Part shown: one piece after another, positions 13,869-26,079 of the stretch | Numbering within the stretch: position 1 is the stretch's first letter | Layout of the letters: each line of letters begins with the position of its first letter | The notes under the pieces: generated by a model | Told to the model about the DNA's origin: nothing | Databases searched by the model: none | What the model saw: only the letters and a program-made list of their open reading frames with translations | From: a virus | Reading direction: 5' to 3' (one strand) | Virus record (IMG/VR): IMGVR_UViG_3300030406_000565 | Location: 1-31,070 of that record | Length of the DNA: 31,070 nt | Made by a program: the position numbers and the translations under genes

Positions 13869-14356
13869 AAAAAAACAAGGCAACCCATAACAACGTCTAA
13901 AGGCATATGTTTAAAAACACTTGCATCTTCTTCTCCTGTGTATTCCTTTATTTGGTATCTATGGTCTTTCTTTAGATCAATAGGTCTATATAAGACTGCC
14001 ATAGCCTTATGCATTGTTTCCCAATCAGAAATGTTATTGTCAAGGTCTATGTACTCGCCTAATGTAATATCGTCTAACTTAGGTATCATACCATATTCTA
14101 CACCTTTCATTTTAAAGGTAGGTATTAGTTCTGTCTTTGTGTTAAAGATATTATTAAGGTCGTTTACTATTTGTGTAACGTAGTTAAATTTGATTCTTGC
14201 TATGTCTTTTAGGTCAAGCCTACAAAATATCTCTACCATCTTATGTAGTAGAAAATTAGTGTTTTGGTTTTCCTCTGTGTTTAGCTTTGCAAACTTCTGA
14301 TACTGCTCTAACGTAATGTCAGATAATTCGTCAGGTATATATATATCAACTTTCAT
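13694..14356 (-). CDS. Tail assembly chaperone, unshifted product, 220 aa
   Basis: MKVDIYIPDELSDITLEQYQKF... is a mostly helical acidic protein at the start of the tail module, with RPIDLKKDHRYQIKEYTGEE around 124-143 and a conserved-looking helical end (SLSEELLQITLKYLAKEMRD...). Codon 161 starts a G-T9-G run where the -1 frame is open, so this is the G-like product and the -1 product is the GT-like fusion. The 174 bases after the slip site are read in two frames, and both look like sensible protein. It starts at a TATTG-N7-ATG motif right after a terminator, so it heads its own transcript. Confidence 0.75.
   Translation of the reverse strand: MKVDIYIPDELSDITLEQYQKFAKLNTEENQNTNFLLHKMVEIFCRLDLKDIARIKFNYVTQIVNDLNNIFNTKTELIPTFKMKGVEYGMIPKLDDITLGEYIDLDNNISDWETMHKAMAVLYRPIDLKKDHRYQIKEYTGEEDASVFKHMPLDVVMGCLVFFWSLSEELLQITLKYLAKEMRDNLTSQQRQILEESGVGINQSMDWLRGMLPNLTRLQN
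13867..13876 (-). promoter_or_regulatory. Putative -1 ribosomal frameshift site (G followed by nine T)
   Basis: The zero-frame codons are GTT TTT TTT TGG. Slipping one base back on TTT gives TTG GAG and enters the -1 frame, fitting an X-XXY-YYZ heptamer made of T only. A pure homopolymer could also allow transcriptional slippage or hide a sequencing length error. Confidence 0.65.
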
Positions 14357-14368
14357 ATTATAACAATA
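14354..14368 (-). promoter_or_regulatory. Recurrent late motif TATTGTTATAATATG (copy 4)
   Basis: Identical to the copy at 7182 and ending in the ATG of the chaperone gene. The terminator at 14388-14413 lies about 20 bases upstream, so transcription of the tail module must restart here. This is the clearest functional context for the motif. Confidence 0.6.
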
Positions 14369-14387
14369 AAATTTTGTGAATTATGTA

Positions 14388-14413
14388 TAAAAAGAAAGGG
14401 GGTAAAAACCCCC
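14388..14413 (-). terminator. Rho-independent terminator before tail module
   Basis: On the minus strand, GGGGG and CCCCC form a stem around a TTTTTA loop, followed by TTTCTTTTT. It separates the terminase-side genes from the tail genes. Confidence 0.85.
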
Positions 14414-14447
14414 TAACTCTAATTAACCAAACAAAATGAAAAAAAAT

Positions 14448-14729
14448 CTATACCTCAATATACTTATTTTTTTTAAAACACCAAACCTTATCTTTTATAA
14501 ATTTATGTTTATACATAAAATATATATCTACATATAGTTCTTCCATTCTCTTACTATAAGCCTCTTGTCCTTTTTTATTCTGCTTATATTCTACATCGCC
14601 TAACTTGTATTCGTTACGCATTTGTAGTTCTAATCTTACTTTTGTGTTGTTCTCAAAAGGCACAGGATAAAACCTATAGCCATTATCCCAACACCTTTGT
14701 TTCATTTGCCAATCTTCTATCCTCGCCAT
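14448..14729 (-). CDS. Unknown phage protein, 93 aa
   Basis: A basic, aromatic-rich protein (MARIEDWQMKQRCWDNGYRFYPVPFENNTKVRLEL...) with two lone cysteines and no transmembrane segment. It overlaps the small membrane protein gene upstream by 13 bases and is the last gene before the terminator at 14388-14413. The high Lys/Tyr content and 'YKQNKKGQEAYSKRMEELYVDIYFMYKHK' helix could bind nucleic acid, but I do not recognise the family. Confidence 0.7.
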   Translation of the reverse strand: MARIEDWQMKQRCWDNGYRFYPVPFENNTKVRLELQMRNEYKLGDVEYKQNKKGQEAYSKRMEELYVDIYFMYKHKFIKDKVWCFKKNKYIEV

Positions 14730-14872
14730 ATAAGAAAAGCTATTTTTACAAATGCAAATGTACCAATGTAAAAGCTACCAAATAAGATAGTAGTGCTTAC
14801 TAATGCTTTCTTAATGTGTTTTCTGTTCTCTTTAGAACAAATCTCTTTTTTAATAATTATAAAATCTTTCAT
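14717..14872 (-). CDS. Small single-pass membrane protein, 51 aa
   Basis: Starts MKDFIIIKKEICSKENRKHI at 14872 with a Lys-rich N-terminus, then one hydrophobic segment (about residues 24-48, LVSTTILFGSFYIGTFAFVKIAFLI) and a short end. The stop lies within the next gene (overlap 13 bases). It is positioned between the large terminase gene and an unknown gene. Function unknown. The 38 bases between 14873 and the terminase stop hold no other feature. Confidence 0.6.
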   Translation of the reverse strand: MKDFIIIKKEICSKENRKHIKKALVSTTILFGSFYIGTFAFVKIAFLIWRG

Positions 14873-14910
14873 TGTAAATTGTTTTATGATTCAAAGATAT
14901 AAACATTTTA

Positions 14911-16080
14911 TTAATAAACAAAATATTCTCCCCTGTGGGAATTATCTATTGTATCTGTTAGTATGTATCTACAAGCATCTATGCAGTCAGGGTGTTCTCC
15001 TGTTGGTTTAGGTAAGGTATTACCATCTTTGTCTTTTGCCCATACATAGCCTTGTAGTTCTCTTTTTAGATTCCTGCTTTTGCTTGTTACATATATTTCG
15101 TTTTGGTTTATTAGGTTAATTCCAAAGTTTACACTATCCCTGCCTTTAGTACAAGGGTAGATGTTATGACCATCACGTCTAAGCGTTTCTATGGACTTAG
15201 GCTCTGCTTGGTCAGCTATTATATTCTCTTTTATGTTATTGTGCCTTAGAAACAAGCTAACATCCCTTAAAACGGTATTAGACTTATAAAACACCTCATC
15301 AAATATGTAGGCTTCATTGTATTTGTAAAGTGCTATAATTGTAGTAGGGTCTGTATATCCAAAGTCCATACCATATCCTAATAGTCTTGCATCTTGTGGT
15401 ATTGTGTCTATCTCTTTCCAATCAGGAATACATACACCGTCATAAGACCCAACTTCCCCATCTAAAAAAACCCTGCACCAATTTTTCCAATAGGTAGATG
15501 TCTTTGCTTTATCTCTTGCTTTTAGTAGTTCTTTTACGATGCTTTGCGGTAAGCTATCGTTATCTTTGTATGTAAGTGTTACAAAGTCTGTGTCAGGTTG
15601 TCCTATTAGTTCCTTATCTACCCAAAATAATCCTGTTGGGTTGTAGTCTAACCATATAATATCGTTTGTTCTTATTGCAAGTTCTTGGTATGCATCAAAG
15701 CCACTTATAGTATTTGCCTCATTCACAAACAAAACATCTCTACGACTACCTCTGAGTTTGCTGCTATCGTCTGTACTAAAAAAGTCAAAGTAGCTACCAT
15801 TAGTAAAAGTGTATCGCATTAATGATTTATTGTGCTGAATTTCTTTATATCTATTTAAACCTTTTAAGATACTAATAAAATCCTTGTATCCACCACGCCT
15901 AAGAGCAGGTACAGTTCCTGTAACAACAGATATTACCATGCTTTCATTTCGTATAGCATAGTCTATTAGTATAGTGAGTATAGATATTGTTTTAGAAGCT
16001 GAAGTGCCTCCGCGTACTATCCGTACTCGATTATTCAGTTTCCGTAATATGTTAAGTGCTTTTGTTTTTTTTACCTGCAT
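14911..16080 (-). CDS. terL: Terminase large subunit, 389 aa
   Basis: DNA-packaging motor that docks on the portal. The ATPase half has a Walker A-like GGTSASKT (24-31) and Walker B DVLFVNEAN (115-123). The nuclease half has MDFGYTDP (D239), IIADQAEP (D290) and HPDCIDACRY (D365/D368), consistent with the RNase H-like metal-binding triad of Terminase_3-type enzymes. The length is close to the shorter members of the family. It directly follows the small terminase gene (one base between stop and start). Packaging type (cos or pac) cannot be read from the sequence. Confidence 0.93.
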   Translation of the reverse strand: MQVKKTKALNILRKLNNRVRIVRGGTSASKTISILTILIDYAIRNESMVISVVTGTVPALRRGGYKDFISILKGLNRYKEIQHNKSLMRYTFTNGSYFDFFSTDDSSKLRGSRRDVLFVNEANTISGFDAYQELAIRTNDIIWLDYNPTGLFWVDKELIGQPDTDFVTLTYKDNDSLPQSIVKELLKARDKAKTSTYWKNWCRVFLDGEVGSYDGVCIPDWKEIDTIPQDARLLGYGMDFGYTDPTTIIALYKYNEAYIFDEVFYKSNTVLRDVSLFLRHNNIKENIIADQAEPKSIETLRRDGHNIYPCTKGRDSVNFGINLINQNEIYVTSKSRNLKRELQGYVWAKDKDGNTLPKPTGEHPDCIDACRYILTDTIDNSHRGEYFVY

Positions 16081-16081
16081 A

Positions 16082-16327
16082 CTAATCTACAAACAACGGA
16101 ATGTCCTCGTTGATTGTAATGTCCTTAGTTTCTCTTGGCTTACCTGCATAGTAATTATAGAAAAGTTGTACGTATTTAAAATCCTGCTTTTCTAATCCTT
16201 TCATCAATGCCTCAAATGCCAATGGCTCTAATGGAGTAAGTTTTTCTATCAGTTGTACTTCTTCTGCTTTAGGTTTTCTACCTGCGTTCTTGTTACCTCC
16301 GTTAAACTTTCTTTTGTCCATAATCAA
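16082..16327 (-). CDS. terS: Probable small terminase subunit, 81 aa
   Basis: A short basic N-terminus (MDKRKFNGGNKNAGRKPKAEEVQ) looks like a DNA-binding arm and is followed by a helical body (IEKLTPLEPLAFEALMKGLEKQDFKYVQLFYNYYAGKP). It matches, from memory, the small proteins placed just before the large terminase in Bacteroidota phages, although it is shorter than most small terminases. The second Met (MDK) is an equally good start. A palindrome and a late motif lie in its leader. The small-subunit role rests mainly on position. Confidence 0.65.
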   Translation of the reverse strand: MIMDKRKFNGGNKNAGRKPKAEEVQLIEKLTPLEPLAFEALMKGLEKQDFKYVQLFYNYYAGKPRETKDITINEDIPLFVD

Positions 16328-16331
16328 AAAA

Positions 16332-16345
16332 AATCATTAATGATT
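16332..16345. promoter_or_regulatory. Perfect 14-bp palindrome AATCATTAATGATT in terminase leader
   Basis: Lies between the late motif copy 5 and the ATG of the small terminase gene, and on the minus strand is followed by a run of T. It could be an operator or a short attenuator hairpin in the leader RNA. Confidence 0.45.
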
Positions 16346-16359
16346 CTACTATAACAATA
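16346..16359 (-). promoter_or_regulatory. Recurrent late motif TATTGTTATAGTAG (copy 5)
   Basis: Shares TATTGTTATA with copies 3 and 4 but lies about 20 bases upstream of the start codon at 16327, again arguing for a transcription rather than translation role. It would start the terminase transcript at the early/late boundary. Confidence 0.5.
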
Positions 16360-16366
16360 AAAAAAA

Positions 16367-16453
16367 CTATTCTTTGTTAAAAAACAATGCTATTAGTAAT
16401 GCTGCTACTGCAGTTAAATAAAACATTCCTATGTACTCCCACACATTAAACAT
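16367..16453 (-). CDS. Tiny membrane peptide, 28 aa
   Basis: Begins MFNVWEYIGMFYLTAVAALL at 16453 and ends ALFFNKE. Almost the whole length is one hydrophobic helix. The start overlaps the stop of the upstream DnaA-like gene by eight bases, as many real gene junctions do here. It could be a membrane-acting peptide, but so short a frame could also be chance. Confidence 0.45.
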   Translation of the reverse strand: MFNVWEYIGMFYLTAVAALLIALFFNKE

Positions 16454-16844
16454 TTATAAGTTTTAACAGGTTTCTGTGTTTGTTTTCTACATCTCTAAGT
16501 TTTATAAGAGTTTTAGCATACTTGTTTCTGTAGTATTCTTTATCTCGATACTTTCTTTCTCTGTTTAATTTACTTGCTATTATTTTATCTAACCTACTGT
16601 AAGTATCTATGTAAGATTTTTCATGCTTATCTATCCAATTATCAAATAGCTTTAGTCCGTGTAACACAGTAGCGTGATTCTTACCTACTGATTTACCTAT
16701 TGTGTTTAAAGAATGTAAAGTATATTCCCTGCATAGCTTATAATACATTGCTCTCATATATACATACTCTGTTGTTCTTTTTGTGTTTAATAAGTCGTAT
16801 CCTGTTTCCTGTTCTACTAACTCTCTAATTTTGTCTATTGTCAT
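16446..16844 (-). CDS. Stand-alone DnaA domain IV-like DNA-binding protein, 132 aa
   Basis: Residues about 25-65 (YVYMRAMYYKLCREYTLHSLNTIGKSVGKNHATVLHGLKLFD) match the DnaA C-terminal helix-turn-helix that reads DnaA boxes, including the signature 'G-x-x-x-G-[KR]-x-H-[AS]-T-V-L-H'. There is no AAA+ ATPase domain. The C-terminal half is a Lys/Arg-rich coiled helix (NRERKYRDKEYYRNKYAKTL). It may mark the phage origin for the host replisome, or bind host oriC or DnaA sites to hinder host replication. It overlaps the upstream small gene by 20 bases. The domain call is strong; the role is inference. Confidence 0.75.
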   Translation of the reverse strand: MTIDKIRELVEQETGYDLLNTKRTTEYVYMRAMYYKLCREYTLHSLNTIGKSVGKNHATVLHGLKLFDNWIDKHEKSYIDTYSRLDKIIASKLNRERKYRDKEYYRNKYAKTLIKLRDVENKHRNLLKLINV

Positions 16845-17004
16845 TTTCTATTTCTTTTATCGCTTTTAATATTCCTGCACAAGCCTCATAGTCCTCTATG
16901 TCCTCGTACATTTTTAATGTTTGTTTTAACTCGTCTAAGGTAACACCATTTTCTATATCTAATAGTGCTAATAGGTAAAATTCATTTGCTACTTTTTTAT
17001 TCAA
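16825..17004 (-). CDS. Small acidic helical protein with TTG start, 59 aa
   Basis: The reading frame starts with TTG at 17004, overlapping the TGA of the methyltransferase gene (TTGA), and encodes (M)NKKVANEFYLLALLDIENG ... EIENDNRQN. It is helical and acidic with no recognised motif. An ATG at internal codon 32 is the alternative start but would leave an unusual gap. The precise stop/start overlap supports the TTG start. Confidence 0.55.
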   Translation of the reverse strand: MNKKVANEFYLLALLDIENGVTLDELKQTLKMYEDIEDYEACAGILKAIKEIENDNRQN

Positions 17005-17603
17005 AACATCCTTATTTGGGCTTGATGTTGTTTTAATCGTTTTATTGCTGCTTCGTAATATTCTGTATCTATTTCATATCCTGTTAAATCATATCCTAAG
17101 TTATGACAAGCTATCGCTATGCTTCCGCTACCTAAGTGTGTGTCTAATATTCTATCTTTTTCTTTAGCATATCTTACCAATATTTCTTCGTACAACCTTA
17201 CAGGTTTTTGACAAGGGTGGTATCTATCTTTATACTCAGCAGATACTCTAATTATTTTTGGTACTTTGTTAAAAGAAGTCCAACATAACTCGTGCATAGC
17301 ATAATTAATTTCTGCTTTTTTTTTATCCCAAACTAACCAATCTCTCTCGTTAGGTAATAAGTTAGCATAATAGTTTGCACCAAATATAATTTGATTTTTA
17401 CTAACTCTTAAAAGTTCTATAAAATATTTTTTGTCAGGTATATTATCATTCCAATTTTTAGCACTCATAAGTTTACCTATTGGATTTGTACCTTTCATTC
17501 TATTTGATATACCAAAAGGAGGGTCAACAATAGCAAGGTCAAACTGATTATCAGCAAACCCTGCCATTGCAACCATACAATCCTCATTGTATAAATTAAT
17601 CAT
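17001..17603 (-). CDS. DNA methyltransferase (N4/N6, beta class), 200 aa
   Basis: Transfers a methyl group from S-adenosylmethionine to an adenine (or cytosine) amino group. The catalytic DPPF is at 27-30, the target-region HPCQKP motif at 129-134, and the SAM-binding LDTHLGSGS at 153-161 (motif I, with 'LDTH' in place of the common 'LDPF'). The order IV then I marks the beta class; DPPF favours N6-adenine. No restriction partner with the same site is evident. It overlaps the ParB-like gene by eight bases, a pairing often seen in phages. It may protect phage DNA against host restriction. Target site unknown. Confidence 0.88.
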   Translation of the reverse strand: MINLYNEDCMVAMAGFADNQFDLAIVDPPFGISNRMKGTNPIGKLMSAKNWNDNIPDKKYFIELLRVSKNQIIFGANYYANLLPNERDWLVWDKKKAEINYAMHELCWTSFNKVPKIIRVSAEYKDRYHPCQKPVRLYEEILVRYAKEKDRILDTHLGSGSIAIACHNLGYDLTGYEIDTEYYEAAIKRLKQHQAQIRMF

Positions 17604-18348
17604 TCTGTATCTCCCTATAGAAGTTTATTTGTTTTGTAACTTCAGGTCTAATAAATTCTACAGAAGAAAGTATTGGACTATCTTGTTCTGCCCAAGTTTC
17701 TAACTGATTAAAAACAAAGTTCATCTCCTTCATATTGCCTTTACTTTTGCTATGTGCTATAGCACAAACTCTGTTTATAGTAAATGCCTGTATCTTAACA
17801 CCACCATATAGTTTTTTTAATTCATAAAATCTTTTAAAAAGGTATTCGCTAAATACTCTGTTTCTTATAACACTAACACCTTGCTTAAATGTTTCAGTAC
17901 AACCTGCATTAAAGTATATATTTAAAACGTTCCCAACAGAAAACACATCTTTAGTTTCGTAATACTTTTTTAGTACATAGCTATAGTCCTTTCTTGTTTG
18001 TGAGTAGCTTTCTAAATAATCAAGTGCAGTCCATTTTCTATTATTATTATTTATGCTCATAATAAATTTTTGGTATTCATCTTTATTTTTGGCATCTATC
18101 CAATCTACAATATAAGCAGGTAGTGTTTCTATACCCATTTGTTTAGCACATTCTACCCTGTGGTGTCCTTCTATAAGATTAGCTTTGTGGTCTACAATTA
18201 TAGGCACTAAAAATCCAAACTCTACCATTTTCTTTTTAAAACTATCCCTGTGCAACTCTACAATTTTTCTATTTACACCTGCGTGTTTTAGTTTGTTAAT
18301 TTGATAATTTCTTTCAAATGTTCCTGTTTTAATGTTTAATGTATTCAT
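17596..18348 (-). CDS. ParB/Srx-like nuclease-domain protein, 250 aa
   Basis: The N-terminal 85 residues match the ParB/sulfiredoxin fold: FLVPIIVDHKANLIEGHHRVECAKQMGIETLPAYIVDW, with the E-G-H-H-R box at 60-64. In phages this domain is often found beside methyltransferases and may act as a nuclease, a nucleotide-dependent DNA clamp or part of a modification system. The C-terminal 150 residues (VLKKYYETKDVFSVGNVL..., FTINRVCAIAHSKSKGNMKE...) are helical and not recognised. It overlaps the methyltransferase gene. A real partition role is unlikely, as no ParA is present. Confidence 0.75.
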   Translation of the reverse strand: MNTLNIKTGTFERNYQINKLKHAGVNRKIVELHRDSFKKKMVEFGFLVPIIVDHKANLIEGHHRVECAKQMGIETLPAYIVDWIDAKNKDEYQKFIMSINNNNRKWTALDYLESYSQTRKDYSYVLKKYYETKDVFSVGNVLNIYFNAGCTETFKQGVSVIRNRVFSEYLFKRFYELKKLYGGVKIQAFTINRVCAIAHSKSKGNMKEMNFVFNQLETWAEQDSPILSSVEFIRPEVTKQINFYREIQND

Positions 18349-18396
18349 AATATTAATTTATTGTTTTGCCTACTCTGAAAGGTTTTCGGCTTTCCC

Positions 18397-19161
18397 TTAT
18401 AATATACCTCGCATCACATATTGATCAAGGTCGTGTTCTTCTACAAAGAAGTATTTATATAGGTCTGTAGCTTGTTTGAATTTGTCCTTACCTCTTGCTA
18501 TAAATTCATCACTCGCATCAAATATTCCTATATCACAACTACCCTTGTCAATTACCAAGAATGTAACCTTACTTGCTTTGAATAATCTTTTGTAAATATA
18601 TGCTTGTAGGTCGTAACCAAATTTATCTGCAGAGTACCTAAAGCCATTCAAGTCTTGACTACTTTTTAAGTCTATAATGTGTCCTTCTTTAAGTATGTCT
18701 GCTTTGCCTCTTACAGGAAAACCATCTAACATCTCTAATGCAGGTACTTCAAACTCTGACTTATTAATTAGTTTAATAGCTTCTTCGTTTCTTAGTAAAG
18801 CATCTGTTAGTCTTTCAGCATCTTGTTTCTCTTTTTCTAAATATACCTCTCCGTGTTTAGATAATGCCTCCTTGTAAACTTTAGCGTTTTTAGAAGATAC
18901 ATCTACAAACTCTAACCTGTCTATCTTGTGGGGTTCCAATACCATCCAATGTAATAACTTACCTGCTCTTAGTGCAGGGGTGTCCTCTACACTACCATAC
19001 TTAATTATGTTTCTGTAGGTCTTAGGACTTTTAAGAATAGTTTTTAGACTACTACTACTTAGTGCATACTTGCCAAGATGACCATAATAAAACTCATCAT
19101 CGTACATCTGTGTCAGTATTTCATCCTTACCCCAAGCCTCACCATTTAGTAGTGTAATCAT
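18397..19161 (-). CDS. PD-(D/E)XK exonuclease (DUF3799/exonuclease VIII-like), 254 aa
   Basis: Predicted recombination exonuclease. Core motifs: LRAGKLLHWMVLEP (64-77, the 'G-x-x-x-H' helix), GKADI with D155, IIDLKSS with D164 and K166, and the YDLQAYIY helix with Q186. These are the pattern of RecE-like exonucleases, which chew one strand from DNA ends to allow annealing or end repair. No Redbeta- or RecT-like annealase is seen, but the DUF3127 protein (22770) and NinG (23599) are in the same early block. Start is an ATGA overlap with the small gene 19158-19313. Confidence 0.8.
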   Translation of the reverse strand: MITLLNGEAWGKDEILTQMYDDEFYYGHLGKYALSSSSLKTILKSPKTYRNIIKYGSVEDTPALRAGKLLHWMVLEPHKIDRLEFVDVSSKNAKVYKEALSKHGEVYLEKEKQDAERLTDALLRNEEAIKLINKSEFEVPALEMLDGFPVRGKADILKEGHIIDLKSSQDLNGFRYSADKFGYDLQAYIYKRLFKASKVTFLVIDKGSCDIGIFDASDEFIARGKDKFKQATDLYKYFFVEEHDLDQYVMRGIL

Positions 19162-19313
19162 AATCCAAGTATCTCGTCTTGTGATTCTTGCCTATTGCTT
19201 AGTTCAGCTTTGGCTTCCTCTATGTGGCTTTTAAGTGTGCTGCCACTTTTAATAATTTGTCGTAGTTCGTCATTTGAATAAAATGACCATAAAAACTTAC
19301 TGTAGTTATCCAT
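19158..19313 (-). CDS. Small early protein, 51 aa
   Basis: Starts MDNYSKFLWSFYSNDELRQI at 19313 and ends EILGL, its TGA overlapping the ATG of the exonuclease gene. Residues 14-47 are a charged helix. Not recognised. The close coupling suggests it is made with the exonuclease. The 45 bases on to the next gene upstream are A/T-rich and hold nothing else clear. Confidence 0.6.
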   Translation of the reverse strand: MDNYSKFLWSFYSNDELRQIIKSGSTLKSHIEEAKAELSNRQESQDEILGL

Positions 19314-19358
19314 AATTTTGTTTTTAGTAAAACTACTTATTAATATTTAATTAACAAA

Positions 19359-19577
19359 TTATTTATTTAATTTTTTAATCTTTTGTATATAAAGTGCAGC
19401 ATCAAGCAATTCAGTTTGTAATTCATTTAGCCACGTATCAAAACCTTCAGGATTCTTTTCTAATGTAGTTCCGTATTCTTTTTGTCCTTCTTCACTACGC
19501 TTGTCCATAATATACTTTACATCTTCTACTATGCCATCTGTGTGCATCTCAAAGTATTTCTTTTTGCTATCACTCAT
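19359..19577 (-). CDS. MazG-like small early protein, 72 aa
   Basis: Contains RSEEGQKEYGTTLEKNPEGFDTWLNELQTELLDAALYIQKIKK, a pattern ('R-x-x-x-G-x-x-x-Y-G-x-T-L ... W-L-x-x-x-x-x-E-L-x-D-A-x-x-Y') that recalls the helical core of MazG/dUTPase-type nucleotide pyrophosphohydrolases and related phage proteins. Metal-binding acids are E61 or E57-type and D65 in the last helix, but the full four-helix set is not present. It overlaps the upstream gene by four bases. A role in nucleotide handling is plausible but unproven. Confidence 0.6.
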   Translation of the reverse strand: MSDSKKKYFEMHTDGIVEDVKYIMDKRSEEGQKEYGTTLEKNPEGFDTWLNELQTELLDAALYIQKIKKLNK

Positions 19578-19885
19578 AAGCCTAATTCTTTTTCTTTTTT
19601 AAGTTTTGCTATTTCTTTTTCTAATTCTTCTACTTTTTTTTCTGCTTTATTTGCTCTGTCTATTGCTCTAAGTTTGTCTGATCTGTATTCACTTAGTGCC
19701 TTGTTAAAATAAAGTTCGTTTGTGTATATCTCTGTAATGTAGTAATTAATATCTACAAGACTACCCATTAGCTTATCAACTGCATCAGTTGGTTTTTTCT
19801 CTTGCCACTCTAACAAGGTGTTTGCTATTATATCAAAGTTAGCTAAGTAATTAAGGTGTTTTAAATTGTGTATTTTTTTGTGCAT
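19574..19885 (-). CDS. Coiled-coil early protein, 103 aa
   Basis: Residues 1-60 are helical (LNYLANFDIIANTLLEWQEKKPTDAVDKLMGSLVDINYY). Residues 65-103 form a long charged coiled coil (RAIDRANKAEKKVEELEKEIAKLKKEKEL). No enzyme motif. It overlaps the MjaI-like nuclease gene by 35 bases and the MazG-like gene by four. Because it sits beside the nuclease it could be a partner or regulator of it, but there is no direct evidence. Confidence 0.65.
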   Translation of the reverse strand: MHKKIHNLKHLNYLANFDIIANTLLEWQEKKPTDAVDKLMGSLVDINYYITEIYTNELYFNKALSEYRSDKLRAIDRANKAEKKVEELEKEIAKLKKEKELGL

Positions 19886-20510
19886 TGTTGTAATGTAATA
19901 TTATGTCTATCTTGTTTTTTATTTTCTGTAGTTCGTATATTTCTTCGTCTTGATAATATATAAGTAGATGTGGTACTTTAAATCTTTCTCTGTAATCTAA
20001 TCTTTGTTTTTCGTGGTTTTCTTTTGCCTTAACTTGATAAGGTTTACTCATATACTTATAGCTGATTGGTTTAATCTGCCCACCAAACACTAATGTGTCT
20101 TTTGTATATACCTCAAAGTCTGTAAAGTATTTTTCATCTAACTCATATAATGATTTTCTAAAATCTAAATTAGGATAAAAATTATTAAGTTGTTTTATAA
20201 ATTTCATTTCCCTAACAAATCCGTTGTAGGTTTGTCCAATAATTCTATGATATATATAGTCCACTATAGTCTTGTCATCATATCCTGTCAGTTCTTTTAT
20301 TTTAAATGCAATTTCACCTATCCTAATTTCTCTGTCTATTGTTAAGTAAAATGTTTCCCACCCATCCATAGTAAATTCATTTGATAAACGATAGTAGTTA
20401 TCTATAAGTTTCATGCACTTACCTACTGACTTACTGTTAAAATACTTATTAACCCTTCGATCTTGGTTTAGGGTTTTGTATATTTTATCTTCTATTGGGT
20501 TTATATACAT
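19851..20510 (-). CDS. MjaI-like restriction endonuclease, 219 aa
   Basis: Matches, from memory of the family, the MjaI restriction endonucleases (type member cuts CTAG): a TYNG motif at 94-97 followed by a helix, then DEKYFTDFEVY (125-135, D131 a candidate metal ligand), the GGQIKPISYK core (143-152, K147 as the PD-(D/E)XK lysine, with Q145 in place of the acid) and a C-terminal VPHLLIYY strand (179-186). Length is typical of short type II enzymes. I find no CTAG in the entire window, which would make the phage immune to its own enzyme. It could destroy host or rival DNA. It overlaps genes on both sides. Confidence 0.72.
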   Translation of the reverse strand: MYINPIEDKIYKTLNQDRRVNKYFNSKSVGKCMKLIDNYYRLSNEFTMDGWETFYLTIDREIRIGEIAFKIKELTGYDDKTIVDYIYHRIIGQTYNGFVREMKFIKQLNNFYPNLDFRKSLYELDEKYFTDFEVYTKDTLVFGGQIKPISYKYMSKPYQVKAKENHEKQRLDYRERFKVPHLLIYYQDEEIYELQKIKNKIDIILHYNNAQKNTQFKTP

Positions 20511-20923
20511 TATAAATACTGATTATAAACTGCTACTAAGTCTTTCCATATTATCTTACCAAAACTACAAGGTGTACAATCTACCTTTGTTTTAAATATT
20601 CTCTCGTATATGTCTTTGTAAGTTTCTTGTTCGTCAAATGTAAACCTATTTTTTTTGGTATCTATAGCCATCTTAATAAGGTTAAACTCATTTTCAGTTA
20701 GACATTCAGGCTTTTTGTATCTAAACATTTTGTTTAGTTTTTCCTGTCTTTCATCGCAGCCACAATCTTCCCCTGCTAACCACTTGACTGCTTTCTTTAT
20801 GCCTGTAGCTTTTGTTATTTTTTCTACAGTATCTCCAAGTCCTTCACTTGCTTGTGCGTGTTTTTTTGCCCATTCCTTGTAGAGTTTAGTTCTCTTATCT
20901 TTTGTTGGTGGTAATTCTTTCAT
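20510..20923 (-). CDS. Conserved Cys-containing phage protein, 137 aa
   Basis: Of a type I associate with Bacteroidota phages: GLGDTVEKITKATGIKKAVKWLAGEDCGCDERQEKLNKMF (28-67), then CLTENEFNLIKMAID and a C-terminal CTPCSFGKIIWKDLVAVYNQYL. The C-G-C and C-x-x-C pairs could bind a metal ion. Function unknown. The start overlaps the sigma factor gene by 29 bases and its stop touches the nuclease start. Its fixed place beside a sigma factor suggests an early regulatory or replication role, which is only inference. Confidence 0.7.
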   Translation of the reverse strand: MKELPPTKDKRTKLYKEWAKKHAQASEGLGDTVEKITKATGIKKAVKWLAGEDCGCDERQEKLNKMFRYKKPECLTENEFNLIKMAIDTKKNRFTFDEQETYKDIYERIFKTKVDCTPCSFGKIIWKDLVAVYNQYL

Positions 20924-21452
20924 ATTCTTTGTATTTTAAATCTAAATAATCTTCGTCAAATAATTCTCTAAGTTCCTCTTTACACTTTTTTAGTGTGTTG
21001 TATATGCTAACCCAACTAATTTTAGTTTCGTCTGCTATTTTTCTAATAGACATATCTGTATCTCTGTACAGTCTAAATAGTGTTTTGTCATACCATCTCC
21101 AATTATTTATGTGGTCATCTATTAGTGTTCTAAATTTATCATATCCTATTTGCTCATCCAATTCCGTATTGTCTGCAATTTGCGTAAAGTTTTCTTCCGC
21201 ATCAAGTTCAATTTTTTTAACCTTTTTTTTAGCATTAATAAACTGTAGCCAAGTAGTGCGAAGGGTAAAATACATATACCCACGACTAACAACACCATTA
21301 TCAATAATTTTTTCTTCACTTGCGTATTTATAAATTATTAAATAAGCCTCTTGAACAATGTCCTCTTGAAAGTTTTTCTCTCCAAACGATTCTACTATTT
21401 TTATCCACTCGTTATGTCTTTCGGCTACCTTACTTAGCCACTTACTTCCCAT
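20895..21452 (-). CDS. Phage-encoded sigma-70-like factor, 185 aa
   Basis: ECF-size sigma factor that would redirect host RNA polymerase. Region 2 is visible as FQEDIVQEAYLIIYKYA (28-44, the '-D-x-V-Q-E-x-x-x-x-x-Y' helix that binds core). Residues 57-75 (RGYMYFTLRTTWLQFINAKKK) fit the -10 recognition helix. Region 4 is TDMSIRKIADETKISWVSIYNTLKKCKEELR (132-162), a clear helix-turn-helix. It lies in the early block, so the late TATTG-type motifs are candidate targets. Overlaps of 29 and 19 bases tie it to both neighbours. A sigma-like transcription regulator without core binding is the alternative. Confidence 0.8.
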   Translation of the reverse strand: MGSKWLSKVAERHNEWIKIVESFGEKNFQEDIVQEAYLIIYKYASEEKIIDNGVVSRGYMYFTLRTTWLQFINAKKKVKKIELDAEENFTQIADNTELDEQIGYDKFRTLIDDHINNWRWYDKTLFRLYRDTDMSIRKIADETKISWVSIYNTLKKCKEELRELFDEDYLDLKYKEYERITTNKR

Positions 21453-21688
21453 ACTACGTTTACACTTATTATTCCTAAAATTGCTTGTAAAGTGTATTCC
21501 GTAATTTCTTTATTGTTTTCTGTAAATTTTTCTTCGTGTACTAAAGCACCTATGACAAATCCCTTTATAGGAGATATTATAATTTCTGCTTTGTTATACA
21601 ATCCAACAAACGCAAAAAAGATTGTTATAATACCTGTTGCTATAAATAAGTATACCATAGGGTAACTGAATATTAGTTCAGCTTTCAA
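21434..21688 (-). CDS. Small two-pass membrane protein, 84 aa
   Basis: Hydrophobic segments at about 8-29 (SYPMVYLFIATGIITIFFAFVG) and about 36-50 with a weaker third near 68-82. Between them is a short acidic loop (HEEKFTENNKEITEYT). It overlaps the sigma factor gene by 19 bases and the ATPase gene by four. It could act in the inner membrane, for example as an anti-host or exclusion protein, but there is no family match. Confidence 0.6.
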   Translation of the reverse strand: MKAELIFSYPMVYLFIATGIITIFFAFVGLYNKAEIIISPIKGFVIGALVHEEKFTENNKEITEYTLQAILGIISVNVVWEVSG

Positions 21689-22590
21689 AATTTAATCTTG
21701 TTCGGTTCTTCGTGCAGTATGTCTTTACCTTGAAATTCAAAGCCTACATTGTTTAAGGTCATACGTAATTTAATAGGTTTTTCAAATGGTGTACATCTAC
21801 CTCCTGTTTCTGTTTCTTTTACTTTTAAAACGTGCAAATGGCTAAACATCCATTCGCTTTCGTGTGAATTATATCTATGACAACAAAGTACGTCATCTGC
21901 TCTATTAGACCACTTACCACCACCCTCTACACTTGCAAGACCTAATGGCATAGGCAAACTTGCATACTCGTGTTCTTTGGGGTGAGTACGTCTTAAAGCC
22001 TCAGTTACACCATGTGCATTTAGATATACTGTAACGTTTTGTTTTTTAGCAAACAATCTAAACTCTGTAGCTATTTGATAATCATATTCGTGTCCACCTA
22101 CTGCTTTTAAAAGGTGATGGTCTTTGCTTAAACTGTTATAAGGGTCTATAAGTAGTGCATTATAATCCCAAGCGTTTTTAACTGCCTTTGCCTCTTTTAG
22201 TAAATCCTTATACGTGTACAAATCTTCTACGTCTATAATTTTAAAATACTTATCTGCCCATTTTACTGTATCGTTAATCTCATCTTCTTGTGCGGTGTGT
22301 ATAGGTTTATTCATTTTAAACTCAATAATCTTTCTTAGTATGCTCTGTGGTGTGTTTTCACTTGACCATATTAGAAATCTTAGTTTGTGTTTTATTGCCC
22401 ATACTGTAAATAGATAACTAATTATTGTAGTCTTTCCTACGTTTGCGTGTCCTATAATTAAATTAAAGTTTCCTTGTTTGTATCTTATGTATTCGTCTAT
22501 GTCAGGTACTCCTATTTTTAATCCTTCTTTTACCCTGCCATATTTAATATCTAAAATCCTTTCTTTTATTTTATTACTTTGTGCTATCAT
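21685..22590 (-). CDS. RecA/DnaB-like ATPase (AAA_25), 301 aa
   Basis: A P-loop ATPase with Walker A GHANVGKTT (47-55), a strand with sensor-like FLIWSSENTPQSILRK (72-87), Walker B ALLIDPYN (145-152) and a downstream VYLNAHGVTEALRR strand/helix. The overall order is that of RepA/DnaB-type replicative helicases without the N-terminal primase-binding domain. It probably helps open or remodel DNA during phage replication. An SSB-like protein is encoded just upstream and no phage polymerase is seen, so it would work with the host replisome. The start overlaps the small gene 22587-22739 as ATGA. Confidence 0.8.
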   Translation of the reverse strand: MIAQSNKIKERILDIKYGRVKEGLKIGVPDIDEYIRYKQGNFNLIIGHANVGKTTIISYLFTVWAIKHKLRFLIWSSENTPQSILRKIIEFKMNKPIHTAQEDEINDTVKWADKYFKIIDVEDLYTYKDLLKEAKAVKNAWDYNALLIDPYNSLSKDHHLLKAVGGHEYDYQIATEFRLFAKKQNVTVYLNAHGVTEALRRTHPKEHEYASLPMPLGLASVEGGGKWSNRADDVLCCHRYNSHESEWMFSHLHVLKVKETETGGRCTPFEKPIKLRMTLNNVGFEFQGKDILHEEPNKIKF

Positions 22591-22739
22591 CTAATTTGGT
22601 TTACGTTTAACCCATATTTCAAATATTCTTTTCTACTGTTTCTTTCTAATGGATCGTATTTGTAGCCTAAGATAGGATTTATACCGTAATTCCAAAAATC
22701 TATAGGCATAGGTTCGTCTTGTTTTAATCTTTTGGGCAT
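22587..22739 (-). CDS. Small early protein, 50 aa
   Basis: Starts MPKRLKQDEPMPIDFWNYGI at 22739, right after a terminator, and ends NVNQIR with its TGA overlapping the ATPase ATG. Contains an aromatic/Pro-rich middle (NPILGYKYDPLERNSRKEYL). Not recognised. Its position suggests it opens the ATPase-sigma transcript. Confidence 0.6.
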   Translation of the reverse strand: MPKRLKQDEPMPIDFWNYGINPILGYKYDPLERNSRKEYLKYGLNVNQIR

Positions 22740-22740
22740 A

Positions 22741-22764
22741 AAAAAAAAGGGGGCAATGCCCCCC
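22741..22764 (-). terminator. Rho-independent terminator inside early region
   Basis: On the minus strand, GGGGGC pairs with GCCCCC across an ATT loop, followed by eight T. It separates the DUF3127 gene from the ATPase/sigma/nuclease block. Confidence 0.85.
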
Positions 22765-22769
22765 TATTG

Positions 22770-23099
22770 TTAAAATGGTAAATCTATTTCTGCTTCTCGT
22801 TGTGGGTTTTGTTGTGAGTTAGTAACCTCGTTATTAATTATGTGTGCCATTCTCCAACCTACTAAGTTATTGTAGTATTTACCGTTGTATTCATTGCCTC
22901 TTAAATTAATATCTACAGACACCTTATCTCCTACTTTGTATTTTTGTAGTATTTGTGTCTTGTCATTTAAAAACTCTATTGCAATGTCCTGTGGGTACTT
23001 AGTATCTTCGTCTATAGTAACTACTATTTGTTGTTTAGTTAGCTTGTGGCTTACTTTCTGTATGTTGTTGATTAACTTAATAGTTCCTTTTAAATTCAT
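22770..23099 (-). CDS. DUF3127-like ssDNA-binding (OB-fold) protein, 109 aa
   Basis: Beta-barrel pattern: MNLKGTIKLINNIQKVS, KQQIVVTIDEDTKYPQDIAIEFLNDKTQIL, YKVGDKVSVDINLRGNEYNGKYYNNLVGWRM, and an acidic C-terminal DLPF tail of the kind that SSB proteins use to recruit partners. The family (DUF3127) is typical of Bacteroidota and their phages and is thought to be SSB-like. It probably coats single-stranded DNA in replication or recombination. It overlaps the upstream gene by four bases and is followed by a terminator, so it may be made in excess. Confidence 0.75.
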   Translation of the reverse strand: MNLKGTIKLINNIQKVSHKLTKQQIVVTIDEDTKYPQDIAIEFLNDKTQILQKYKVGDKVSVDINLRGNEYNGKYYNNLVGWRMAHIINNEVTNSQQNPQREAEIDLPF

Positions 23100-23410
23100 A
23101 TCTTATTTAATTCTAATTCTACTTTCTTACTTATTTTAAATTGGTTTCTAAGGTCTTGTATTGCATAACCTTTTTTAACTAAACTAATAGCTTTGTTGTA
23201 GTCAGGTGTGTTTTGGTTTAACCATCCTTTCTCATCTTCAGCTTTTTTGGGTATAGGTGGTAAAGATTGTTCACTTCCCATTACCCAATCTGCAAACTGT
23301 TGTGCAGTTGCTAAAACCTTTTCTTCCGTTTTAGTTTCTTCTGATTGCCAAAAGGCATTTGCATTTGTAAGTGCGTTTTGCTTAATGATGTACTTCTGTG
23401 TGTTGTCCAT
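23096..23410 (-). CDS. Conserved early protein, 104 aa
   Basis: Helical protein with NALTNANAFWQSEETKTEEKVLATAQQFADWVMG (12-45), a pattern I associate with Bacteroidota phage early regions beside DUF3127 genes, followed by a Pro/Lys linker and an end (YNKAISLVKKGYAIQDLRNQFKISKKVELEL) with a possible helix-turn-helix look. It is coupled to the DUF3127 gene (four-base overlap), so it may assist in single-stranded DNA handling. Function unknown. Confidence 0.7.
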   Translation of the reverse strand: MDNTQKYIIKQNALTNANAFWQSEETKTEEKVLATAQQFADWVMGSEQSLPPIPKKAEDEKGWLNQNTPDYNKAISLVKKGYAIQDLRNQFKISKKVELELNKI

Positions 23411-23513
23411 AATTAATACCGTTTTGAATGTTTAATTGTTTTCTTAGTAAAGAGTTTTCGTGTTGCAGTTCCAAGACCTTGCCTTGAAGTTCTGCTTTTG
23501 TTAAATGTTCCAT
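23382..23513 (-). CDS. Small leucine-zipper-like protein, 43 aa
   Basis: Starts MEHLTKAELQGKVLELQHEN at 23513, with Leu at near-heptad spacing (ELQGKVLELQHENSLLRKQLN), so a short coiled coil is likely. It overlaps the next gene by 29 bases and follows a terminator by about 28 bases. Role unknown; a dimerising regulator would fit the shape. Confidence 0.55.
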   Translation of the reverse strand: MEHLTKAELQGKVLELQHENSLLRKQLNIQNGINYGQHTEVHH

Positions 23514-23541
23514 ATTGCTAAGTTATAAAAAAATATCTAAC

Positions 23542-23571
23542 AAAAAAAAGGGGTAGTAATTAAACCACCCC
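23542..23571 (-). terminator. Rho-independent terminator after NinG-like gene
   Basis: On the minus strand, GGGGTGG and CTACCCC pair (one G-U) around an eight-base loop, followed by eight T. It divides the NinG unit from the DUF3127 unit. Confidence 0.85.
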
Positions 23572-23598
23572 TAACAATAAAACAATAAAACAAAAAAA

Positions 23599-23991
23599 TT
23601 ACAGAAAGGTCTTTAATTTAGTATTGTAGTGTTCAATCATCTGTTCAATATCATAACTACTAAATTTTACAACCTCTTTACTTTTCAAATATAATTCATT
23701 ACTTAACTCCGAACCAAGAAAAAGGGAGTATTTATATTGTTCACCCTGTTTAAACATATTGCAGCCGCAACATTGGGGTTTTACATTATCTTCATCCCAT
23801 CTCGTTGAGTAATGCTTTCTACTCATAAAATGCCCTGCTTGTATATTTTTCCAATGGTATTTACGATCGCAGGTAACACAAGTACAAAAACCATTCTTAT
23901 CTGCACTACTTAGTCTTATATACTTACTAAAAACTATGTCAAGTTTTTTTATCAGTTTACTTTTAGTTGGTTTTTTTGCAGTTCTTGGCAT
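23599..23991 (-). CDS. ninG: NinG/Rap-like recombination endonuclease, 130 aa
   Basis: Resembles lambda NinG (Rap), a structure-specific nuclease in recombination. The zinc-binding pattern is visible: CTCVTC (C36, C38, C41), QAGHFMSRKH (H54), and QCCGCN (C74, C75, C77), with a basic N-terminus (MPRTAKKPTKSKLIKKLDIVF). The 'A-G-H-F' and 'N-V-x-x-Q-C-x-x-C-N' motifs are strong for an HNH-like fold. Length is shorter than lambda's 204 aa but normal for Bacteroidota phage homologues. It is followed by a terminator and preceded by the 80-aa gene with a four-base gap. Confidence 0.85.
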   Translation of the reverse strand: MPRTAKKPTKSKLIKKLDIVFSKYIRLSSADKNGFCTCVTCDRKYHWKNIQAGHFMSRKHYSTRWDEDNVKPQCCGCNMFKQGEQYKYSLFLGSELSNELYLKSKEVVKFSSYDIEQMIEHYNTKLKTFL

Positions 23992-23995
23992 TATT

Positions 23996-24238
23996 TTACG
24001 TATCCATAGCTTGTACTAAACTCTTGCCTAACGTTTCGTCTATCCCTTGTATCATGCGGTAGATATACTTACTATCTGACTTTACTTTTTTCTTTTCACT
24101 TACTAAACTATCTTTACCAAGGTTAGTATATTGGTTTGCATCTAATCTTAGTAATAAATCTGTACGTTCTTTTACAGATACTGCAAAATCTTTAGCTATT
24201 TTCTCTGCAAGTTGTCTAATAGTAGTATCTTCTGACAT
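23996..24238 (-). CDS. Unknown helical protein, 80 aa
   Basis: A helical protein of a type I associate with Bacteroidota phages (IRQLAEKIAKDFAVSVKERTDLLLRLDANQYTNLG). No enzyme motif. It starts after a 102-base gap (24239-24340) that holds A/T-rich sequence and an inverted repeat but no gene, so it may begin a transcript that continues into NinG. Confidence 0.65.
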   Translation of the reverse strand: MSEDTTIRQLAEKIAKDFAVSVKERTDLLLRLDANQYTNLGKDSLVSEKKKVKSDSKYIYRMIQGIDETLGKSLVQAMDT

Positions 24239-24313
24239 TTTAAATATATATTAATTAGTTAAACATTATTTACCACTAACCCACCAAAGTTAGCGACTTT
24301 TTTTTTAAAGTTC

Positions 24314-24353
24314 AACAGGGTGTTAATAATTTTAGCATAACTATTTACCCTGT
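24314..24353 (-). repeat. Inverted repeat ACAGGGT...ACCCTGT
   Basis: Seven-base arms spaced about 26 bases apart at the end of the small basic protein gene. The run after it on the minus strand is TTGAACTTT rather than a T tract, so it is only a weak terminator candidate; it may be an RNA stem after the lysis genes. Confidence 0.3.
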
Positions 24354-24475
24354 CCTTTATATTTCTTACTATATAATTTACTTGATTTTAGGCTACTTTG
24401 TTTGCTTTTTGCGTGTATGCCTTTACGCTTTTTCTTAGGTTTCTTGTAATAGTTACTTACTATCTGTTTAGCCAT
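24341..24475 (-). CDS. Small basic conserved phage protein, 44 aa
   Basis: Encodes MAKQIVSNYYKKPKKKRKGI followed by HAKSKQSSLKSSKLYSKKYKGQGK. The pattern 'KKxRKGxHAKxKxSxxKxSKxYxKKYxGQG' is one I know from many Bacteroidota phages. Very basic, so probably RNA- or DNA-binding. It overlaps the holin stop by eight bases. Function unknown. Confidence 0.75.
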   Translation of the reverse strand: MAKQIVSNYYKKPKKKRKGIHAKSKQSSLKSSKLYSKKYKGQGK

Positions 24476-24887
24476 TGTTTTTTATACTTGATACTTTTTC
24501 AAAACTTCTTCCACCAAAATATCCTGCAAAAACTATCCACAATAATTCTTTAACTATGTCAAGTTCTTCTAATTGTAAATACCATCCTATTACAAAAGCT
24601 ACTGTCAAAAAAACTAATGTAAGTGGTCTTACGTTTTTACTAAGCCAACTATCACTTCTACTGTCTGCTACCCATCTTTTAGTAATGCCATCCATTTCTG
24701 CACGTTCTAAGCGTAGCTTTTCAAGTGCTACCTGCTTATCTGCCTCTGACATTTCACTACCGCCAATAATAGCTTCTATAACACTACCTACAGGTGTGTC
24801 ATTTGCTATCTTACTTACTACGTTAGGGATTTTATTAAGTAGAAATTTACCTACTACTGTGTCTTTAAATTTCTTTTTACCTGCCAT
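24468..24887 (-). CDS. Holin (GTA_holin_3TM-like), 139 aa
   Basis: Predicted lysis timer that holes the inner membrane. It has a soluble N-terminal part (IANDTPVGSVIEAIIGGSEMSEADKQVALEKLRLERAE), then W-V-A-D-S-x-S-D-S-W-L-S-K-N-V-R-P-L-T (about 72-90), two or three hydrophobic stretches (about 88-127) and a GGRSFEKV end. The R-W-x-A-D-x-x-S-D-S-W-L motif is that of the GTA-type three-helix holin family. It is in a cassette with the endolysin and lipoprotein genes. The upstream gene overlaps it by 11 bases. Confidence 0.8.
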   Translation of the reverse strand: MAGKKKFKDTVVGKFLLNKIPNVVSKIANDTPVGSVIEAIIGGSEMSEADKQVALEKLRLERAEMDGITKRWVADSRSDSWLSKNVRPLTLVFLTVAFVIGWYLQLEELDIVKELLWIVFAGYFGGRSFEKVSSIKNNG

Positions 24888-25077
24888 TTACAATTTCGTT
24901 GTATAGTATCTGTGCTAATTTAGCTTCATTATGATTTTCTATGCAAATGTCTTTTGTAATTTCTTTAAATCGCTTTCGGTTTGTTTCCCTTACACTTGCA
25001 CAACTCATCATCGTTGCAACAAGTATCGTCATTATTACTCGCATTGTGTTTGTTTGTTTGTGCAATATGTATTTCAA
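24877..25077 (-). CDS. Small lipoprotein, possible outer-membrane spanin, 66 aa
   Basis: Contains a signal peptide with lipobox-like ending (MRVIMTILVATMMSC, Cys 26 counted from the 25077 start), followed by a charged helix (VRETNRKRFKEITKDICIENHNEAKLAQILYNEI). Start may be at 25077 or, better for a short signal, the ATG at 25044. Lipoproteins of this size beside a holin are commonly o-spanins that help break the outer membrane. It overlaps the gene at 24965-25165 in another frame, a nested layout seen in Rz/Rz1 pairs. Function is by context. Confidence 0.55.
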   Translation of the reverse strand: MKYILHKQTNTMRVIMTILVATMMSCASVRETNRKRFKEITKDICIENHNEAKLAQILYNEIVNGR

Positions 25078-25165
25078 TAATTGCGTTAGTTAGTTTGTCG
25101 ATACTTTTGCGTATCTCTTTTAATTCGTTTCTTAGTCCGTTAGCCTTTACTTTTATTTCACTCAT
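24965..25165 (-). CDS. Small coiled-coil protein with Cys-rich end, 66 aa
   Basis: MSEIKVKANGLRNELKEIRK... forms a helical coiled coil for the first 40 residues, and the tail is unusual: DDTCCNDDELCKCKG, four cysteines among acidic residues, which might bind metal. It lacks a signal peptide or transmembrane segment. It starts inside the last codons of the nested reading frame 25158-25541 and overlaps the lipoprotein gene in another frame. Either this or the lipoprotein frame might be chance, but both have protein-like sequence. Confidence 0.5.
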   Translation of the reverse strand: MSEIKVKANGLRNELKEIRKSIDKLTNAIIEIHIAQTNKHNASNNDDTCCNDDELCKCKGNKPKAI

Positions 25166-25541
25166 AGCTTATCGTACTTCCTACTGTATTAGTATGTCCA
25201 AATGACATTTTTGGTTTTACCTTTTTCGGCAGTATCACAATGTATGAAGGTACTTGCAATACCGATTCGATTGAATCCTGCACTAAGTAACGCTGATATA
25301 ATAATGAATCTGCTTCTTGAATCTGTGCAATGTATGTCTGCTGCTTTGCCGATAAGGTGGGCTGACTTAGTTGGCTCTTTTCCCAATTTTTTGTAGATAG
25401 CTTGGTGATGTTCTGTTGTGCGGTAGGCACTATTAATTTTAAAGGGTATCCCTGCAATCTCACGTGCTGCTTCCAACTTTTGCAAGAAGTCGCTATCCAT
25501 ATTGATCCCACTATTAGGAAGGTCAGGCGAATCAAACTCAT
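25158..25541 (-). CDS. Possible nested lipoprotein ORF inside the endolysin gene, 127 aa
   Basis: Lies almost wholly within the M15 gene in a different frame. It begins MSLIRLTFLIVGSIWIATSC, a convincing short signal peptide with a lipobox-like Cys at position 20, and later has a helical stretch (LSAKQQTYIAQIQEADSLLYQRYLVQ). Its stop overlaps the next gene's ATG by eight bases, closing a 23-base gap after the endolysin stop. Rz1-type lipoproteins are often nested in this way. A chance open frame opposite a conserved enzyme remains possible, so this is tentative. Confidence 0.35.
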   Translation of the reverse strand: MSLIRLTFLIVGSIWIATSCKSWKQHVRLQGYPLKLIVPTAQQNITKLSTKNWEKSQLSQPTLSAKQQTYIAQIQEADSLLYQRYLVQDSIESVLQVPSYIVILPKKVKPKMSFGHTNTVGSTISYE

Positions 25542-25575
25542 CTAAAGTAAAATATTTAAGATTTGTTTTTGTCAT
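25189..25575 (-). CDS. M15-type peptidase endolysin, 128 aa
   Basis: Zinc D,D- or L,D-carboxypeptidase-like enzyme that cuts peptidoglycan cross-links at lysis. Motifs: FKINSAYRTTEHHQAIY (45-61, substrate loop S-A-Y-R), SAHLIGKAADIHC with H73 and D80 as metal ligands, and FIHCDT with H112. The whole protein is the catalytic domain; no wall-binding domain. No signal peptide, so release needs the holin. It overlaps the upstream 121-aa membrane protein gene by 20 bases. The family call is firm; which bond it cuts is not determinable here. Confidence 0.88.
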   Translation of the reverse strand: MTKTNLKYFTLDEFDSPDLPNSGINMDSDFLQKLEAAREIAGIPFKINSAYRTTEHHQAIYKKLGKEPTKSAHLIGKAADIHCTDSRSRFIIISALLSAGFNRIGIASTFIHCDTAEKGKTKNVIWTY

Positions 25576-25921
25576 CGTATTCTAAGGTTTTATTTATAAG
25601 CAACCTATCTATAACGTCATCCTGTATTTTAATAAGTAGTTCTTCTAACTTGTCTTTTGCTACTACAAGCTGCTCTACTTTACTTTCTAAAGCATCATTT
25701 TTACGTTGTAACTCTATTACCTCGTTTGGGTCTTTGCCAATAAATACATATATAGCTGCACCTATAGTAGCCACCAAAGCACCTGTAATAAGTTTAAAAG
25801 TATCGTTATTTGTTTGTGGAATTTCAACGTAACTAAGAAAAATAAGAAGGGCAATAACAAACAAAAATACTACTCCACTTCCTATATAACCTCTTAACTC
25901 TCTCCTTTCTCTACTTGTCAT
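25556..25921 (-). CDS. Membrane protein with two TM segments and coiled coil (holin or spanin-like), 121 aa
   Basis: Transmembrane segments at about 13-31 (GSGVVFLFVIALLIFLSYV) and about 43-62 (KLITGALVATIGAAIYVFIG), then a long coiled coil (about 66-110, VIELQRKNDALESKVEQLVVAKDKLEELLI). Membrane anchor plus periplasmic or cytoplasmic coil fits an inner-membrane spanin or a holin accessory. ATGA-coupled to the 51-aa membrane protein upstream and overlapping the endolysin downstream, so it belongs to the lysis cassette. Confidence 0.65.
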   Translation of the reverse strand: MTSRERRELRGYIGSGVVFLFVIALLIFLSYVEIPQTNNDTFKLITGALVATIGAAIYVFIGKDPNEVIELQRKNDALESKVEQLVVAKDKLEELLIKIQDDVIDRLLINKTLEYDDKNKS

Positions 25922-26073: not shown

Positions 26074-26079
26074 TTCATT

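Follow-up and report, generated by a model that had tools for sequence, protein, structure and literature searches.

A predicted CYRG endonuclease in an exchangeable phage slot and a phage genome free of its word

Introduction

The window, that is the whole stretch of 31,070 bases of viral DNA analysed here, encodes a protein resembling the restriction endonuclease MjaI, whose site is CTAG. This raises the question of how a phage can harbour a gene for a cutter of short sites without being cut itself. A sequence-only reading of the window had seen no CTAG in it and had proposed that the phage is self-immune by site loss, so that its nuclease could act as a weapon with no need for a matching methylase.

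Results

The MjaI-like gene and its slot

The ORF encoding this protein is intact and starts with ATG. It lies between two ORFs of the same strand:

20510..20923, minus strand: upstream border of the slot, 137 aa, phrog_32048; conserved, with a homologue found there both with and without the type A gene
19851..20510, minus strand: type A slot protein, 219 aa, predicted MjaI-like PD-(D/E)XK endonuclease with predicted site CYRG (RE_MjaI, PADLOC, AF2 model, dN/dS)
19574..19885, minus strand: downstream border of the slot, 103 aa, charged, coiled-coil-like; likewise conserved there whether or not the type A gene is present

The stop of the upstream ORF overlaps the start codon of the nuclease gene, and the downstream ORF extends 35 bases into its 3′ end. 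In every carrier contig that includes both flanks, the type A gene sits between homologues of these two ORFs; in relatives the slot holds another protein, or nothing.

The assignment to the MjaI family, made in the sequence-only reading from motifs, was borne out by profile search. Pfam RE_MjaI (PF09568) matches the window protein with 29.8 bits, above the gathering cut-off of 22.7 (E = 6e-7), and matches 11 of 11 homologues at E ≤ 0.01 (best 7.7e-11). PADLOC REase_II also matches the type A protein (E = 3e-8), which, judged by its sequence, is thus a member of a known nuclease family. The candidate active site is formed by E101, D131 and Q145-x-K147. D131 and Q145-x-K147 are invariant, and in the AF2 model (pLDDT 91.7 for the window protein) they are placed on paired strands (132–136 and 139–148). 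When the model was compared with solved structures by VIA-align, it came closest to Hjc (Z 8.4) and the restriction enzyme BsaWI (Z 7.9 over 147 residues), followed at lower rank by VSR, BstEII and PspGI. Each of these is a nuclease of the PD-(D/E)XK type, but such Z values, near 8, are middling. The PD-(D/E)XK core fold, with D...QxK on paired strands, is therefore found in type A at this middling level of similarity. Foldseek gave no match at E ≤ 0.001, and no sequence relative was found in the PDB. The gene evolves under purifying selection (dN/dS 0.07–0.10).

Three further types of slot protein were distinguished. Type B (126–129 aa) has invariant D32 and E43-L-K45. Type C (131 aa) has invariant D29, D31, E45 and K47, and its model resembles Hjc (Z 7.7). 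Type D (154–158 aa), present in G020, L088, L068 and L283–L287, contains the stretch HIDFYVNDIGIDVKG and shows a weak match to RE_MjaI (E = 0.0013). No confident family assignment was obtained for types B, C and D, which look like small PD-(D/E)XK nucleases. On the TerL tree the slot changes type at least 14 times. In one contig (L080) it holds a 108-aa protein without nuclease motifs.

Words missing from the window

CTAG is indeed absent from the window, where 111–121 copies are expected: dinucleotide shuffles gave a mean of 113.9 (sd 10.9) and an order-2 Markov model 111. GATC, which the sequence-only reading had used as a comparison, occurs 14 times in agreement with its count, but is itself low (76 expected), and CATG is found in 14 copies where ~75 are expected. 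As the signature of the enzyme, CTAG turned out to be too narrow. That reading had missed further words that are equally empty: CCAG/CTGG (0 against 119 expected, both strands), CCGG, GGCC and GCGC, together with a series of 5- and 6-bp sites. Four of the empty words, CTAG, CCAG, CTGG and CCGG, together make up the whole of the degenerate palindrome CYRG. CYRG was first spotted in the word counts; in a ranking of all degenerate palindromes of length 4–6, carried out afterwards on the window alone, it came out as the top-ranked empty one. When synonymous codons of the 42 genes were shuffled, CYRG was found on average 164 times and never less than 140 times. Since the observed count is so far below these values, coding constraint does not explain the absence.

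1..31070, no strand: CYRG-free genome, proposed determinant of self-immunity (0 observed against 239.8 expected; 0 against 164 in the synonymous shuffle)

The type A enzyme would thus probably cleave CYRG, a site broader than that of MjaI and containing it.

Other words absent from the window are GGCC, GCGC, CCNGG, GGWCC, GAGTC, AAGCTT, GAATTC, GGTACC, GTGCAC, GCNNGC and RGATCY. No nuclease matching these words was found in the phage, and their loss is probably due to host restriction pressure.

Loss of CYRG follows the type A gene

The carrier set comprises 15 contigs: 13 IMG/VR loci, one contig reached through TerL, and the window. Pooled over these, CYRG occurs once where 914 copies are expected and is the top-ranked word for type A. 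The sole copy is a CTGG located 122 bases from a contig end; CTAG is zero in 15 of 15 carriers, as are CCAG and CCGG. Contigs with no CYRG at all were 14 of 15 for type A, 0 of 83 for type B, 5 of 72 for type C and 0 of 8 for type D. Carriers are scattered over the TerL tree, occupying at least four distinct positions. Two additional scans for the type A gene yielded just one new carrier.

The sequence-only reading had suggested comparing related phages with and without the gene, and its refuting outcome, CTAG equally absent where the gene is lacking, was seen in part; the result differs between CTAG and the full set. CTAG is often zero in the absence of the MjaI gene (29 of 81 type B contigs, 15 of 69 type C contigs), whereas the complete CYRG set tracks the gene. 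G007, a TerL relative lacking the gene, illustrates this difference, with CTAG 0/108 but CCAG+CTGG 48/121 (observed/expected, here and below). CTAG alone was therefore ruled out as a signature.

Six CYRG-free fragments were obtained in which the gene was not seen. One, L010, belongs to the phage of the window itself (TerL 100%), and the rest end before the slot. For L086, which is among the latter, its sample yielded a second fragment, L317, that reaches across the slot; L317 contains the gene and is CYRG-free, and both fragments are ~97.5% identical to the carrier G016. Homologue sets of every other gene of the window were analysed in the same manner, and for none of them was a comparably empty word found across contigs.

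Each slot type has its own empty word

For each slot type, a ranking was made of every degenerate palindrome and every plain word of 4–6 bases. In the initial contigs, the first-ranked empty word was CATG for type B (4/848) and GATC for type C (0/310). Once these predictions were made, new contigs, none of them used before, were fetched with the B and C proteins. In this hold-out, CATG was again the emptiest word for type B (1/1304 in 67 contigs) and GATC for type C (3/1732 in 64 contigs). Three of the four stray copies (1 CATG, 3 GATC) lie within 160 bases of a contig end. In the type B contig G008, the only CATG copies are at 510, 1017, 3656 and 6060, all in the first 6.1 kb, which is possibly recently acquired DNA.

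Contigs without CATG were 80 of 82 for type B, 12 of 15 for type A, 23 of 72 for type C and 0 of 4 for type D; contigs without GATC were 70 of 72 for type C, 12 of 15 for type A, 16 of 79 for type B and 1 of 8 for type D. Many type A fragments thus also lack GATC and CATG. The two words are lost for other causes too, yet they are essentially always lost with the matching gene. Label permutation is a poor control here, some words being rare globally, and it is the hold-out and the out-of-family tests that carry weight.

For type D, the pooled contigs are devoid of CCGG (0/51), CCNGG (0/65) and TACGTA. None of the words is completely missing from a 93-kb contig encoding a distant type D homologue, and low CCGG counts are seen in most of these phages.

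The association holds outside the family

Homologues in unrelated phages gave the same match of gene and word. In the Tenacibaculum jumbo phage pT24 (234,670 bases), BPT24_046 is a type C protein (36% identical), and GATC is absent (0/721) while CTAG (471/480) and CATG (476/843) are not. The pT24 genome paper is silent on restriction, methylation and GATC (PMC5502841). CCGG (0/81) and GGCC (1/42) are also empty or nearly so in pT24, without a matched gene. A phage found in a Maricaulis MAG encodes a 50%-identical type C protein, and GATC (0/52) is its only absent 4-bp palindrome. The same is true of G034 (type C protein 43% identical; GATC 0/80), where CYRG is at 223/212. The 39-kb phage record OX376640, encoding a 46%-identical type B protein, has CATG 0/129. 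It also lacks AGCT (0/177), GATC (0/125), CCGG and GGCC, and may encode more solitary nucleases.

No match to types A and D was found in INPHARED, and no plasmid match to type C. In scans of bacterial genome contigs, no homologue of type A or of type C was found beside a methylase of known specificity; for type C only the Maricaulis-MAG phage and L303 matched, and the latter was rejected as a chance match inside a 3,861-aa ORF.

Alternative causes of word loss

Host restriction could have removed CYRG, CATG and GATC, with the slot genes being captured host nucleases or passengers. Phages widely avoid the restriction-modification sites of their hosts (PMC6286503). Many other words are gone with no corresponding gene in the phage, and phages lacking the matching gene are in many cases also poor in GATC and CATG. 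We nevertheless find this improbable, since the match of word and gene persists through the 14 or more changes of slot type and recurs in unrelated phages, no 4-bp palindrome other than the matched word is absent from the Maricaulis-MAG phage or from G034, and zero CYRG is confined to type A and to contigs adjoining type A on the tree. Short palindromes are lost here as in the cases of PMC6286503; there, however, the selecting enzyme is the host's, whereas here the phage's own gene tells which word is missing. Restriction by hosts may well have prepared the genomes for taking up a cassette.

It is very unlikely that the slot proteins are DNA-binding or anti-restriction factors, the word being harmful for some other reason. 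An anti-restriction protein would relax site loss, not impose it, and the invariant D...ExK of types B and C and D...QxK of type A, together with the RE_MjaI and REase_II matches of the latter, point to nucleases, although nuclease activity is predicted from sequence and types B and C could not be confidently placed in a family. The genome-wide purge of a 4-bp word does not fit the long site of a homing endonuclease; such enzymes also spread their own gene, and the cassette may be mobile.

Two genes close to the slot bear on ordinary restriction-modification and on the fate of cut DNA:

17001..17603, minus strand: N6/N4 DNA methyltransferase (Pfam N6_N4_Mtase, E = 2e-17)
18397..19161, minus strand: exonuclease VIII-like protein (Pfam DUF3799 (PDDEXK_1), E = 1.4e-19; phrog_412 exonuclease VIII, E = 9e-34)

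A phage methyltransferase such as that at 17001..17603, only 2.2 kb from the nuclease gene, might protect the DNA and site loss be secondary. We give this hardly any credence: the homologue is found neither in the carrier G016 nor in the slot region of the carrier L002 and is present in many non-carriers, and a genome free of sites offers no substrate for methylation. This distribution led us to reject the enzyme as a cognate methylase. A crude scan for the motifs DPPY/NPPY or PCQ in ORFs of at least 100 aa gave no candidate in G016 (30.7 kb) or L002 (8.5 kb). No cognate methyltransferase was thus found alongside the nuclease gene, as a type II restriction-modification system would have, and no methylase tracks it. 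The N6/N4 methyltransferase adjoins a ParB-like protein (17001–18348); it is patchy among relatives, independently of slot type.

Compositional bias or a general scarcity of CTAG, a word rare in many bacteria, has practically no chance of being the cause: it is refuted by the near-normal CTAG of type D relatives (374/414), the absence persists under Markov models and synonymous shuffling, and CCAG and CTGG are missing from carriers to the same degree.

A solitary endonuclease with immunity by site loss

The purifying selection on the gene, its predicted nuclease fold and the lack of any methylase tracking it make a solitary restriction endonuclease the most likely product. Type A would accordingly be, with high probability, a methylase-free CYRG endonuclease with self-immunity by site loss, and one of several swappable cassettes of the slot. 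The core of the original proposal is strongly supported, but the predicted site is CYRG and not CTAG, and the case is one of a wider rule. According to this model, the type A gene would encode a sequence-specific endonuclease cutting the degenerate 4-bp palindrome CYRG; there would be no cognate methyltransferase, and the phage would be immune because its genome is devoid of CYRG. The fixed slot would accept interchangeable cassettes: the MjaI-like A for CYRG, B for CATG, C for GATC, and D as a further type. The resident enzyme would select for a lineage genome free of its own word, which would slowly return once the cassette is lost or exchanged.

The slot genes are intact and conserved and carry PD-(D/E)XK-type motifs, and the association of word and gene is reproduced in the hold-out and out of the family; from this we infer that the slot proteins cleave their matched words. 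As to the use of such cutting, breakdown of host DNA early in infection, by analogy with chloroviruses, has about an even chance of being right. The exonuclease VIII-like protein is a possible partner, which would digest DNA from the cut ends. A more tentative proposal is that cutting destroys competitors, be they phages or other elements. The same metagenomes hold relatives with different cassettes, each carrying tens of the other's sites, which makes competition plausible: in sample 3300029448, CATG is absent from G001 (type B), which has 38 GATC, and GATC is absent from G002 (type C), which has 38 CATG.

We think it likely that these genes form a class of phage weapon, made of swappable, methylase-free, short-site endonucleases in which self and non-self would be told apart by complete absence of the word only. 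It is equally likely that this class spans at least three nuclease types and is found in the small marine phages of the window's kind, in the jumbo Tenacibaculum phage and in other phages.

Relation to known systems

Chloroviruses likewise encode short-site restriction enzymes, and a breakdown of host DNA in the first minutes of infection has been ascribed to those packaged in the virion (PMC7019647). They are protected by adjacent cognate methyltransferases, whereas protection here is apparently by complete site loss, with cassettes swappable in one slot. PacI, as cited in PMC3488263, is a solitary restriction enzyme whose bacterial host genome lacks its site, so that self-protection relies on site absence and not on a methyltransferase, as proposed here; PacI is bacterial with a rare 8-bp site, whereas the phages studied here would have to lose hundreds of 4-bp copies, repeatedly and for different words. 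RE_MjaI (PF09568) is the sequence family of type A, but the site of its member MjaI is CTAG, whereas the phage genomes point to the broader CYRG.

The archaeal-virus enzyme HHPV4I has been proposed to exclude other viruses (PMC10101028). This SRA-wH-HNH protein cuts only methylated GATC and thus separates self from non-self by methylation, in contrast to the site absence proposed here. Odn of ICP1 is a stand-alone nuclease acting against the PLE satellite and exchangeable with CRISPR-Cas at the same locus (PMC8263062). It is a phage nuclease directed against a competitor, as the slot nucleases may be, and is like them swappable at one locus, but it targets a replication origin via iterons and they would target a 4-bp word absent from the phage. 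In open-licence PMC papers, no report was found of short-site nucleases that phages encode in exchangeable form, without a methylase and with loss of the matching site throughout the genome. Each ingredient has a precedent; the combination has none among these papers.

If true, this would be a new route for a virus to carry a toxic DNA cutter, through a target-purged genome and not through methylation or modified bases. The specificity of an uncharacterized nuclease could then be read directly from the missing words of a genome, and the evolution of restriction-site avoidance would become testable, as some apparent host pressure may come from the phage's own gene. Candidate small enzymes of 129–131 aa for CATG and GATC, and a possible CYRG cutter, are at hand, and pT24, an isolated phage, is a ready model.

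Gain and loss of cassettes

In contigs without a given cassette, the observed/expected ratio of its word rises with the TerL distance to the nearest carrier (rho 0.65 for CYRG, 0.81 for CATG and 0.72 for GATC; contigs share ancestry and hosts, and raw p-values overstate). G018, which is sister to carriers but has nothing in its slot, contains 3 CYRG where 56 are expected. Both results fit a purge while the gene is resident, followed by a slow return of the word.

Five type C contigs are CYRG-free, for instance G027 (25 kb; CYRG 0/185), and no MjaI gene was found anywhere in them. Because their TerL, in those having one, is close to that of the type A carrier L093, they are possibly recent swaps of an A for a C cassette. 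The type C contigs G027, L220–L222, L227 and L228 contain neither CYRG nor CATG, possibly a record of earlier cassettes.
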